IMG/VR virus record: IMGVR_UViG_3300010368_000139
Span: 1 to 21,528 of that record
From: a virus
Strand: one strand, 5' to 3'
DNA: 21,528 nt
Part shown: positions 3,706-18,477 of the stretch, piece by piece
Numbering within the stretch: the stretch's first letter is position 1
Layout of the letters: each line of letters starts with the position of its first letter
Notes under the pieces: generated by a model
The model's database searches: none
Seen by the model: the letters and a program-made list of their open reading frames with translations, nothing else
Told to the model about the DNA's origin: nothing
Translations under genes and position numbers: made by a program

Positions 3706-3929
3706 ATACGTATTCAGAGACCATCCCTGTGCCTGACCACCCAGCAATCGAAGACGCCGCTGAACTCTGTGAGGCGTACTTCGACACACCTGAGGGTCAG
3801 GCCAGGATCAGCACCATGCAGGGCCACCTCGACTTCCAACACGCACTTGTCACAGGCCTGTGGGGAATTGCTGCCACCTCAAGGACAACCATCGACATAA
3901 CCGAAGAATTTGAAAGGACCACGCAATGA
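3702..3929 (+). CDS. Hypothetical protein, 75 aa
   Basis: The ATG overlaps the stop of the preceding gene (ATGA), indicating translational coupling. The 75-residue product is acidic, has no Cys-rich or membrane segment, and contains a central region around DTPEGQARISTMQGHLDFQH. I recognise no family. Its stop again overlaps the next ATG. A promoter-like match (about 3866-3888) lies within its coding sequence. Confidence 0.75.
   Translation: MNTYSETIPVPDHPAIEDAAELCEAYFDTPEGQARISTMQGHLDFQHALVTGLWGIAATSRTTIDITEEFERTTQ
3866..3888 (+). promoter_or_regulatory. Possible weak phage promoter inside the 3702 gene
   Basis: AATTGCTGCCACCTCAAGGA keeps the AATT-(3)-TGCCACCTC spacing of the proposed promoters but has A instead of T at -2. 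The predicted +1 is G3883. It would give an extra start ahead of the two tiny genes and the SSB gene. Because CCACCTC occurs by chance in other coding sequence here (for example near 5791 and 14726), this is only a candidate. Confidence 0.3.
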
Positions 3930-7622: not shown

Positions 7623-7721
7623 ATGCTTCATGAAACCACACACACGGTGATCGTTTTTCTATCGGGAATGTTTGTAGGTGCAGTGACCTTTCTTACGGTT
7701 GTTGCACTTGTATTAAATTAA
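7623..7721 (+). CDS. Tiny membrane peptide, 32 aa
   Basis: A short gene with a strong ribosome binding site (AAGGAGAT, 7610-7617) five bases before its ATG. The peptide begins MLHETTHT and continues with one hydrophobic helix (VIVFLSGMFVGAVTFLTVVA), then ends. It fits the gap between primase-helicase and DNA polymerase, and the polymerase has its own ribosome binding site afterwards. The good start signal and single transmembrane segment suggest a real gene; function is unknown. A host-membrane or lysis-related role is possible but unsupported. Confidence 0.65.
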   Translation: MLHETTHTVIVFLSGMFVGAVTFLTVVALVLN

Positions 7722-7734
7722 AAGGAGAGGCTGT

Positions 7735-13897: not shown

Positions 13898-14089
13898 ATG
13901 CGTATTAAAGCTTTTAAAGATGCTAAAGGCCCCATGAGTGTGGGCAATAAGTTTACCCTATACAAAAAGCAGTACACGGTTGTTCGCTACGAGTTGGATG
14001 CTAATAACGTCCCACTGATGCGGGCAACTGACGGCAAGAAGGATTTCTTCTTTTACGAAGATGATCTCAATGTCGAACCGGAAGCGTGA
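13898..14089 (+). CDS. Small hypothetical protein, 63 aa
   Basis: Starts at ATG 13898 with AGGA about eight bases upstream, directly after the tandem promoter. The product opens MRIKAFKDAKGPMSVGNKFT, looks like a compact beta-rich domain (alternating hydrophobic residues in YTVVRYELD and KKDFFFYEDD), and ends acidic. It has no membrane segment or Cys cluster. No family recognised. The end overlaps the HNH gene start by 20 bases. Confidence 0.7.
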   Translation: MRIKAFKDAKGPMSVGNKFTLYKKQYTVVRYELDANNVPLMRATDGKKDFFFYEDDLNVEPEA

Positions 14090-14309
14090 CTACAAGAAAG
14101 AGTACCGGGACTACCACGCTAAACCTGAACAGATTAAGAGGCGAAATGCACGTGGGACAGCTAGAAAGCTGATGATCAAGAAACATGGGAAAGCAGCCTT
14201 AAAAGGTAAGGATGTGGACCATAGAGATCGAAATCCACGAAATAACTCTACATCTAACCTCAGAATCCAATCAAAGAAGGTGAATCGTGCCCGAAACTCG
14301 CACAAATAG
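14070..14309 (+). CDS. Small HNH-type nuclease-like protein
   Basis: A 79-residue, strongly basic protein. The opening MSNRKRDYKKEYRDYHAKPE and the motif DVDHRDRNPRNNSTSNLRIQ (His, Asn, Asn-rich) match a widespread family of very small phage HNH proteins. In larger relatives this fold cuts DNA, either as homing endonuclease or in packaging. ATG 14061 is an in-frame alternative start nine bases upstream. It lies just before the virion genes, where small HNH proteins that help terminase are sometimes found, but the terminase is not in this window so that link is unproven. Confidence 0.8.
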   Translation: MSNRKRDYKKEYRDYHAKPEQIKRRNARGTARKLMIKKHGKAALKGKDVDHRDRNPRNNSTSNLRIQSKKVNRARNSHK

Positions 14310-16351: not shown

Positions 16352-17179
16352 ATGGTTGATAAAGTAATCATCGATTCTCCCGATACAGCCCAAACCCCTC
16401 CCGAAGGCCACGATGCAGCAATGGCAGCACTTGTTGATAATGCAGGTGACCCTGATGCCGCACCACCAGCCGCGCCTGAAGAGGCACCTAAGTTTGCTGG
16501 TAAGTACGGCAGTGTTGAAGAGTTGGAGAAGGGCTACGCTGAGTTACAAAAGAAATTAGGTAACCAGGATAAAGCTGACGAACCTTCTACCGATACACCG
16601 CCAGATGAAGCTGACAAGTCTGCTAAGATTGAGAAGCCAGATGCAGAGAACCCTGATGTTGATGCAGCCAAGGAAGCTGTTGAGGCCGCTGGGTTAGACT
16701 TTGACTCTTACAGTAATGAGTTTGCTGAGAAGGGTGAGTTGTCTGAGGGTACGTATGAGGCCTTGGAAAAGGCTGGTATCCCTAAAGACATGGTGGATCA
16801 GTTCATTGCTGGTCAACAGGCTGTAGGCGCACAAGTCTACAACTCCATGATGGAAACTGCTGGTGGCGAAGAGGCATACCAAGGGATGTTATCTTGGGCT
16901 GCTGAGAACTTTGCTGAAGGTGAGATTGATGCCTTCAACGCAACCATCGACGCAGGTGACCTTAACTCTTCACGCCTAGCTATCGCAGGTCTGAAGGCAC
17001 GTTATGATGCATCTGAAGGTAACGAACCAACCCTGACAGGCGGTAACAATACATCGACTGATGGGGCTGTGTACGAAAGCTGGGCACAGGTAACGGCTGA
17101 CATGTCAGACCCACGTTACAAGAATGACTCAGCATATCGAAACAAGGTGAGCATGAAGTTGGGACGTTCCAACATTTAA
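16352..17179 (+). CDS. Capsid assembly scaffolding protein, T7 gp9-like
   Basis: A 275-residue acidic protein (T7 gp9 is 307) expected to guide procapsid assembly and leave before DNA packaging. It is rich in Ala, Glu, Asp and Pro in the first 120 residues, with the family's FAGKYGSVEELEKGYAELQK segment (48-67), a long helical middle, and a C-terminal basic end (YRNKVSMKLGRSN), typical of scaffolds that grip the coat protein. It lies between portal and coat genes as in T7. The start ATG 16352 has GAAGGAA some 11 bases upstream. Confidence 0.93.
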   Translation: MVDKVIIDSPDTAQTPPEGHDAAMAALVDNAGDPDAAPPAAPEEAPKFAGKYGSVEELEKGYAELQKKLGNQDKADEPSTDTPPDEADKSAKIEKPDAENPDVDAAKEAVEAAGLDFDSYSNEFAEKGELSEGTYEALEKAGIPKDMVDQFIAGQQAVGAQVYNSMMETAGGEEAYQGMLSWAAENFAEGEIDAFNATIDAGDLNSSRLAIAGLKARYDASEGNEPTLTGGNNTSTDGAVYESWAQVTADMSDPRYKNDSAYRNKVSMKLGRSNI

Positions 17180-17200
17180 TTAATGCCACCTATAGGAACA
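17178..17200 (+). promoter_or_regulatory. Candidate phage RNA polymerase promoter P6 (capsid promoter)
   Basis: AATTAATGCCACCTATAGGAAC is the best copy of the repeated motif, in the TATAGG form; predicted +1 is G17195. It starts on the scaffold stop codon and stands where T7 has its strong phi-10 promoter for the coat protein. Confidence 0.75.
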
Positions 17201-17461
17201 CTCACTGTAGAGGCGCGTTAAACCGCGCTCCGGTGAGCATTGCCCCCTGCCGTAGCTTTATCTCCTTTCACTACGGCGGGGGGCCTTACCTACCCTTGTG
17301 ACCATGATGCGCTGAATCCTTATTCGGCATCTAACTTCCACATCACACCCGAATCGAAGGCCCGACTGATTTCCTATGCGTAGGTGATCTTAGGACACCC
17401 GGATGTGCCGTGTTGTGAACGAAGGAAGCTAACTCTCCTTTAACTCACAAGGTAATTTAAT
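17195..17461 (+). promoter_or_regulatory. Structured 5' leader of the capsid gene
   Basis: A 267-base untranslated stretch from the predicted +1 of P6 to the capsid ATG. It holds a hairpin at the very 5' end (17201-17236, CTCAC/GTGAG plus GCGCG/CGCGC arms with internal bulges), a perfect 14-pair stem (17242-17255 with 17271-17284, one G-U, 15-base loop containing TCTCCTTT), a 7-pair stem (17311-17317 with 17322-17328) and a weaker one (17369-17388). None is followed by a U-run, so these are not simple terminators. The loop pyrimidine tract is repeated near 17433. No gene, tRNA or rRNA is visible in it. Stabilising or processing the abundant capsid mRNA is the likeliest role. Confidence 0.75.
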
Positions 17462-18427
17462 ATGTCTAATGCTACCGTTTCTCGTGTCGGCCAGAGCAAT
17501 CTGGCTGGTGACGATCAAGCACTATTCCTGAAAGTATTTAGTGGCGAAGTTATGGCTGAATTTGCCATTAACAACGTTGCACTCAACCGCACGATGGTGC
17601 GTACCATTTCCAGCGGTAAATCGGCTCAGTTCCCGATTATGGGTAAAACCTCTGCCGCATATCACACTCCCGGCGCTGAGATCGTAGGCACTGCCATCGA
17701 CCACGCTGAACGTGTGATCACGATCAACGACCTTCTGTTGTCGAGCGTGTTCATCTCCAACATCGATGAGGCCATGAACCACTATGGTGTTCGTAGCCAC
17801 TACTCGAAAGAGTTGGGTATGGCATTGTCGAACCAGATGGACCGCCACATCCTTGCTACCGGTGTCAAAGCTGCCCTTTCGACGGCAACGCTGACCACGG
17901 CTGGTAACGCTGGTGAAGTTGTTACGGACGCTGATGGTGACACCAGTGCTGACTCGCTCATTCAATCCATCTTTGATGCCGCACAGGCATTGGATGAGAA
18001 GAACGTTCCTGAGTCGGATCGCACGGTATTCTTGAAGCCAGCCCAGTACTACTTGCTGGTCAATTCGAGTTCCAAGCTGATCAACGTTGATTATGGTAAC
18101 TCCGGTAACGGTTCTACCGCATCCGGTAAAGTATATAACGTCGCTGGTATTGATATCGTCAAAACCAACCAACTTCCGACCACCAATATTACCACGGGTG
18201 TCGAAGCTGGTGGCGATGCTACCGCCCAAGCAGTTGATGCACGTAACGGTCTCGCACTTGTCATGCACAAGTCGTCTATTGGTACGGTCAAGCTGATGGA
18301 CCTGTCGAGCGAATCTGAGTACGACATTCGTCGCCAAGGTACGCTCATGGTTTCCAAGTACGCTTGTGGTCATGGTGTATTGAAGCCTGACGCAGCTGTA
18401 TGGATTCGTACCGCGACTCCTGCATAA
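17462..18427 (+). CDS. Major capsid protein, T7 gp10A-like
   Basis: A 321-residue coat protein of the HK97 fold (T7 gp10A is 345). Matching blocks run through the whole protein: ALFLKVFSGEVMAEFA, MVRTISSGKSAQFPIMGKTS, AERVITINDLLLSSVFI, IDEAMNHYGVRSHYSKELG, KNVPESDRTVFLKPAQYY, LVMHKSSIGTVKLMDLS and KYACGHGVLKPDAA. AAGG about ten bases before the ATG is a modest ribosome binding site after a long leader. Codon choice looks more restricted than in its neighbours (many TCG, ACG and GGT), which also leaves a long open frame on the opposite strand. It is flanked by a promoter and a terminator, so it probably forms its own abundant transcript. Confidence 0.97.
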   Translation: MSNATVSRVGQSNLAGDDQALFLKVFSGEVMAEFAINNVALNRTMVRTISSGKSAQFPIMGKTSAAYHTPGAEIVGTAIDHAERVITINDLLLSSVFISNIDEAMNHYGVRSHYSKELGMALSNQMDRHILATGVKAALSTATLTTAGNAGEVVTDADGDTSADSLIQSIFDAAQALDEKNVPESDRTVFLKPAQYYLLVNSSSKLINVDYGNSGNGSTASGKVYNVAGIDIVKTNQLPTTNITTGVEAGGDATAQAVDARNGLALVMHKSSIGTVKLMDLSSESEYDIRRQGTLMVSKYACGHGVLKPDAAVWIRTATPA

Positions 18428-18437
18428 TCTCTCTCTT

Positions 18438-18477
18438 AATGGGGGCTATCTCTTAAATGAGGTGGCCCCCATTTTTT
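18438..18477 (+). terminator. Strong intrinsic terminator after the capsid gene
   Basis: A 15-pair stem (18438-18452 with 18459-18473, G/C-rich lower half including GGGGGC/GCCCCC, two G-U pairs) closes a six-base loop (TTAAAT) and runs directly into six T residues (18472-18477). It starts ten bases after the capsid stop. T7 has its T-phi terminator at exactly this place, between genes 10 and 11, where partial read-through sets the ratio of coat to tail proteins. Confidence 0.92.

Follow-up and report, generated by a model that had tools for sequence, protein, structure and literature searches.

A structured capsid leader in a T7-like phage that pairs the Shine-Dalgarno sequence, and a recurrent hairpin in the capsid leaders of related phages

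The stretch of DNA analyzed here (the window; 21,528 nucleotides, IMG/VR record IMGVR_UViG_3300010368_000139) derives from a T7-like phage, with genes for a single-subunit RNA polymerase at 386-2809 and for a T7-type scaffold protein at 16352-17179. Positions 2-304, directly 5' of the RNA polymerase gene, encode the COOH-terminal portion of a tyrosine recombinase (Pfam Phage_integrase), so that this T7-like phage carries an integrase. At 7673-7712, a hairpin of 16 pairs (G-U allowed) lies within a 33-codon open reading frame that starts at 7623 and specifies a hydrophobic peptide directly 5' of DNA polymerase. An HNH_3-domain gene (14070-14309) is located 5' of the portal gene; given that a small protein similar to its product is encoded in the scaffold-capsid gap of relatives (L005:2226-2450), the gene seems mobile between such late-gene gaps. 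The features at and around the capsid leader are as follows.

17179-17198, + strand: phage RNA polymerase promoter for the capsid transcript, ATTAATGCCACCTATAGGAA, unchanged in the relative L004
17201-17237, + strand: SL1, the 5'-terminal hairpin (z -3.0), with its outer 7 pairs kept in L004
17242-17284, + strand: SL2, a 14-pair hairpin with a 15-nt loop, CUUUAUCUCCUUUCA (z -6.1 for 17240-17287), with compensatory changes in L004
17294-17301, + strand: 5' strand of helix P1, CCUUGUGA, forming 8 pairs with 17445-17452
17311-17328, + strand: SL3, GCUGAAU-CCUU-AUUCGGC, present in the minimum-energy fold, its stem identical in L004
17368-17389, + strand: SL4, a UGCG-tetraloop hairpin, recognized by position and by a partial match (17373-17384) to the hairpin R1 described below, with a U-G to C-G change in L004
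17413-17450, + strand: SL5/P3, a predicted hairpin adjoining the Shine-Dalgarno (SD) sequence, with a comparable arrangement in some relatives (for example L037 and L049)
17445-17452, + strand: 3' strand of P1, UCACAAGG, which includes the capsid SD AAGG (17449-17452)
17462-18427, + strand: major capsid gene (Pfam Gp10A-like, E 3.3e-81)
18438-18473, + strand: terminator-like hairpin 3' of the capsid gene, 15 pairs followed by a T-run

The capsid promoter is one of a family of seven sites in the window (305, 2864, 3867, 5700, 13852, 14305 and 17179; consensus ATTRRTGCCACCTCTAGGAAC). By analogy with T7, the capsid transcript would start at 17195, and the leader up to the capsid ATG at 17462 then measures 267 nt, in agreement with a preliminary description of this DNA that had singled it out as unusually long and as lying between the capsid promoter and its gene. 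The accompanying statement that nearly every other leader is shorter than 70 bases was slightly generous: leaders behind three other promoters are 25-65 nt, whereas those behind the promoters at 3867 and 14305 are longer. The hairpin at 18438-18473 is the probable 3' end of a single-gene capsid transcript, and the capsid gene can therefore be transcribed as a unit of its own, as in T7 and the Pseudomonas phage LUZ100. A weak terminator-like hairpin (17158-17173) closes the scaffold gene directly 5' of the capsid promoter. No terminator-like site was detected inside the leader, with only that hairpin and sites from 18429 onward being found around it.

The whole leader (17195-17470) folded to -90.1 kcal/mol with a z-score of -3.5, and none of 200 shuffled sequences was as stable. 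The multi-hairpin structure seen previously is thus real, with both SL1 and SL2 also scoring well below zero. The SL2 stem, formed by 17242-17255 and 17271-17284, had been called perfect; it does contain 14 pairs, far beyond chance (dinucleotide shuffling of the leader 1000 times produced a stem of at least 14 pairs twice), although one of these pairs is U-G. Its loop, CTTTATCTCCTTTCA (17256-17270), contains the 8-mer TCTCCTTT at 17261-17268, which recurs in the leader at 17434-17441. The complementarity of this tract to SD sequences, also noted before, was confirmed: UCUCCUUU (17261-17268) is fully complementary to the AAAGGAGA SDs of the genes for RNA polymerase (366-385) and DNA polymerase (7713-7734), which begin at 386 and 7735, forming 8 pairs at approximately -10 kcal/mol, compared with -3.6 for the capsid SD. 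The 3' half of the leader is not unusually stable (z -1.5), and the evidence for that region therefore consists of conservation and covariation.

L004, whose capsid protein is 95% identical in amino acid sequence to that of the window, was the only diverged sequence found with the same type of leader, and covariation within this type rests on few changes because only two independent sequences, that of the window and L001-L003 and that of L004, were found. The SL2 stem arms, whose conservation the preliminary description had named among its checks, are kept in L004 by two double-sided compensatory changes together with replacement of the U-G pair by C-G, and the 15-nt loop is identical. The outer stem of SL1 changes from CUCACUG/CGGUGAG to CUCACAG/CUGUGAG, with the apical arm carrying an insertion in L004. 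The 30-base blocks of 17305-17440 are 90-100% identical between window and L004, compared with 59% (scaffold) and 74% (capsid) at third codon positions. These sequence comparisons indicate that the leader helices are maintained by evolution. No match to the leader was obtained with blastn among 50,697 phages. The loop pattern CTTTATCTCCTTTCACT gave 8 matches in IMG/VR, comprising 4 known kin and 4 in unrelated contexts, and other sequence patterns yielded known kin and chance matches only; 41 matches in GTDB genomes were dropped, a number close to that expected by chance for a 17-mer given the bases searched. The window leader and those of relatives at 65% capsid identity, in which an HNH-like gene fills the gap, were not alignable with MAFFT.

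The helix P1 showed pair probabilities of 0.65-0.96 in the leader-only fold, in which the capsid SD was unpaired with a probability of at most 0.01. In L004, P1 reads UCCUGUGA/UCACAGGA, with two pairs changed on both sides and all 8 pairs kept; the probability of such matched changes arising by chance is below approximately 0.01, a rough estimate that assumes two random changes per strand. P1 is thus a conserved helix pairing the SD, as is characteristic of SD-sequestering translational control elements, with the conservation seen in one relative. The hairpin SL5, which is also conserved, has an inner stem GAAGGA/UCCUUU and an outer stem in which UUGUGA (17413-17418) pairs with UCACAA (17445-17450), the same strand that is taken by P1. 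In the leader-only fold, the P1 state is favored over the SL5 state by 2-3 kcal/mol; once 139 nt of capsid coding sequence are included, the two are about equal, with their order reversed. P1 and SL5 compete in silico, and the leader may switch between them. The phage polymerase would initiate at 17195, and SL1 and SL2 would form near the 5' end, where they may stabilize or insulate the capsid message. P1 would close the near-invariant 3' domain (17305-17440) and, while formed, would exclude ribosomes; capture of the shared UCACAA by the outer stem of SL5 would open P1 and free the SD. The balance might be tipped, for example, by a phage or host protein, by folding kinetics or by ribosome loading, and repression of the most abundant virion protein by P1 would be reasonable only as a conditional process. 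The earlier suggestion that the element times capsid expression is plausible in that the covarying P1 covers the SD; the switching we infer. The emphasis previously placed on the 5' hairpins missed P1, the near-invariant 3' domain and R1.

For comparison across the family, 229 capsid loci were collected and reduced to 107 leader clusters, that of the window among them. Most of these clusters share a hairpin, R1, of the form UU-GR-C-[3-5 bp]-YNMG-[3-5 bp]-ACAA-YC. In 48 seed sequences, six of six pairs vary on both sides and 97.2% of cells are paired, with 83 double-sided cells as against 23.4 in shuffled sequences and at most 16 in slid controls. Given that the seeds were picked for a paired upper stem, these counts lean towards the upper stem, and the lower two pairs (GG/CC, GA/UC, AG/CU, AA/UU) were one part of the seed selection score; the position of R1 is less affected by this selection. 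The strict motif occurs 67-109 nt 5' of the capsid ATG in 77 of 106 non-redundant leaders (median 87 nt, quartiles 83-94), compared with two occurrences away from capsid leaders in 533 kb searched on both strands. A match was present in 19 of 20 whole genomes or records, at about one strong match apiece. Sites include L171:1882-1920, L251:1401-1439 and L255:1411-1449, together with about 75 more capsid leaders. A held-out set of 23 loci was reached through the scaffold protein, outside the building of the R1 model; 15 of these had an R1 match with E no higher than 0.012, in each case on the + strand and 5' of the capsid gene, at 81-124 nt from its estimated start. Some of the held-out loci, with capsids 58-63% identical to that of the window, have altered loops such as ACAC, AUAC and AAAA, which shows that the internal loop of R1 drifts among the nearer relatives of the window. 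Thermodynamic z-scores were similar for capsid leaders (mean -1.38) and capsid coding sequence (-1.23) and did not tell the two apart; stability alone was therefore not taken as evidence for R1.

Isolates with R1 include Bordetella phage BB8, the Pelagibacter phages HTVC019P, Eistla and HTVC134P, the Roseobacter phages CRP-118 and CRP-125, and Rhizobium phage RHEph01, with weak matches in LUZ100 and Prochlorococcus phage P-SCSP1b. R1 was not found in T7, HTVC025P, Limnohabitans YIMV22061, S-CBP1, Kompost-2, Caulobacter S2B or the Podoviridae isolate ctgrD200. Some scaffold-capsid gaps contain a tRNA gene directly 5' of R1 (L250:1140-1215, L252:1242-1312, L037:2752-2823), which in LUZ100 and RHEph01 is tRNA-Asn. 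In 38% of 82 R1-bearing leaders, the strand directly 5' of R1 and the SD region form a helix of at least 7 pairs, compared with 12% (maximum 19.5%) when partners were swapped between leaders. The pairs of this helix vary by clade (for example UUACCUUU/AAAGGUAA, GUAUCUAU/AUAGGUAC, UUUGUACUUU/GAGGUACAAA). In other clades there is instead a hairpin that ends directly 5' of an open SD, and many relatives, such as L047 and L117, have no P1 over the SD. Pairing of the SD is therefore recurrent rather than universal.

The candidate for R1 in the window is SL4, which reads GA-UUU-CCUA-UGCG-UAGG-UGA-UC, with the upper hairpin CCUA-UGCG-UAGG at 17373-17384. Its loop is located 85 nt 5' of the capsid ATG on the same strand, within the 67-109 nt range of R1, and its stem of 3-5 pairs with a YNMG tetraloop is that of R1; it continues AUCUUAGG, much as relatives continue AAUCUUAG. 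SL4 nevertheless lacks the internal loop C/ACAA flanked by covarying GR...YC pairs, and the R1 model scored it at 8.7 bits, which is short of significance in the window (E 3.3) and in the leader alone (E 0.041); the E value for the L004 leader was 0.045. SL4 is probably a diverged counterpart of R1, and the window leader as a whole probably represents a divergent form of the leader RNA found 5' of the capsid gene in most related T7-like phages. Given the missing ACAA loop, however, membership of the window in R1 is not proven, and SL4 was not filed as a member.

The proposal of the preliminary description that the leader is an RNA element acting on the capsid mRNA stands, because its helices covary, it is strongly conserved and a related element is present in most leaders of the family. 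Our best reading, held with moderate confidence on the strength of conservation, covariation, complementarity to the SD and position, is that it is a cis-acting structured 5' untranslated region that controls translation of the capsid mRNA through ribosome access; in this reading P1 would repress translation, SL5 would trade places with it, and some trigger might act on the balance. More tentatively, the capsid-leader element might switch capsid translation in most related T7-like phages, for instance through autoregulation by capsid or scaffold protein or through a host factor at the C/ACAA loop, with the lineage of the window having rebuilt it as a bistable helix exchange around the SD. The leader could instead serve mainly mRNA stability or processing, with SL1 and SL2 shielding the 5' end or with an RNase III hairpin trimming readthrough transcripts to a defined capsid mRNA end, as at T7 RNase III sites. 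SL1 and SL2 are the most stable parts of the leader and lie directly 3' of the start site, a capsid gene that has a promoter and a terminator to itself would profit from a stable single-gene mRNA, and T7 mRNAs are processed by RNase III, which provides a precedent. The domain near the SD, not the 5' hairpins, is most conserved, however, and R1 occurs at a fixed distance from the start codon about once per genome, unlike dispersed processing sites; we regard a mainly stabilizing or processing role as possible but doubtful.

Conservation and covariation also weigh against the leader being functionless, lineage-specific filler. The scaffold-capsid gap does vary widely in length and content, and relatives at 65% capsid identity carry an HNH-like gene there, but the leader is near-invariant compared with 59-74% identity at third codon positions, two of its helices show compensatory changes, and structured RNA directly 5' of the capsid gene is kept in relatives with or without the HNH gene, making filler very unlikely. 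The preliminary description had also raised a separate small RNA, and the leader might be released as such or act in trans, with the UCUCCUUU loop of SL2 pairing with early-gene SDs and silencing them late. The identity of this loop in L004 while its stem covaries, as well as its stronger pairing with the polymerase SDs than with the capsid SD, would suit such a role. Anti-SD-like tracts pair with any good SD, however, SL2 was seen in this genus only, and the leader has no terminator while its structure reaches into the capsid ribosome-binding site, so that the small-RNA proposal was not borne out; action of the SL2 loop in trans is only a possibility, and this alternative as a whole seems very unlikely. 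The separation of promoter and capsid gene by a long structured leader might also suggest that the element acts on transcription and not on translation, as an attenuator or by pausing the phage polymerase. Most hairpins do not stop single-subunit polymerases, no hairpin of terminator type with a U-run was detected in the leader, and the covarying P1 involves the SD, all of which leave attenuation with very little likelihood.

Among the late proteins of T7-like phages, capsid is made in the largest amount, and the control of its synthesis is usually viewed in terms of promoter, strong SD and terminator. The presence of R1 at a fixed distance in phages of Pelagibacter, Roseobacter, Rhizobium, Bordetella and probably Pseudomonas suggests a shared post-transcriptional step, which could be tested in cultured phages. 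R1 is also a candidate RNA family missing from Rfam, and it can serve to mark the late transcription unit. With Rfam 15 at the gathering threshold, no match was obtained in the window and one tRNA only in 20 related loci, matches for the leader being at chance level only; no description of R1 or of the window leader was found in the open literature searched. Structured leaders are a known kind, and the window leader, and R1 especially, appear undescribed in Rfam and the open literature.

The manA and wcaG RNA motifs are structured RNAs of marine phage genomes that were likewise found by comparative analysis (PMC2864571), but they occur in T4-like cyanophages 5' of metabolic genes, whereas R1 occurs in T7-like phages 5' of the capsid gene. 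The window leader resembles SD-sequestering operators and riboswitches in having a long-range helix that includes the SD and a competing alternative helix; it differs from them in having no known ligand or binding protein and no Rfam family match. In the T7-like LUZ100, according to the available part of its description, the capsid gene has a local phage promoter on one side and a strong terminator on the other, and no RNA element is described there for the capsid leader (PMC10134795). The LUZ100 leader is long, as is that of the window, with a weak, extended R1-like hairpin 5' of the capsid gene, and unlike that of the window it also contains small open reading frames and tRNA-Asn. The T7 gene 10 unit (phi10, Tphi) shares with the window a phage promoter of its own directly 5' and a terminator directly 3' of the capsid gene, and the UUUAAC tract 5' of the window capsid SD resembles the enhancer region of T7 gene 10 (PMC8748333). 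The window thus has the flanking promoter and terminator of a T7 gene 10-type unit but not its short leader with an open SD: the T7 leader, of about 60 nt, has a small 5' hairpin, leaves its strong SD open and lacks R1, whereas that of the window extends over 267 nt and its SD is paired.
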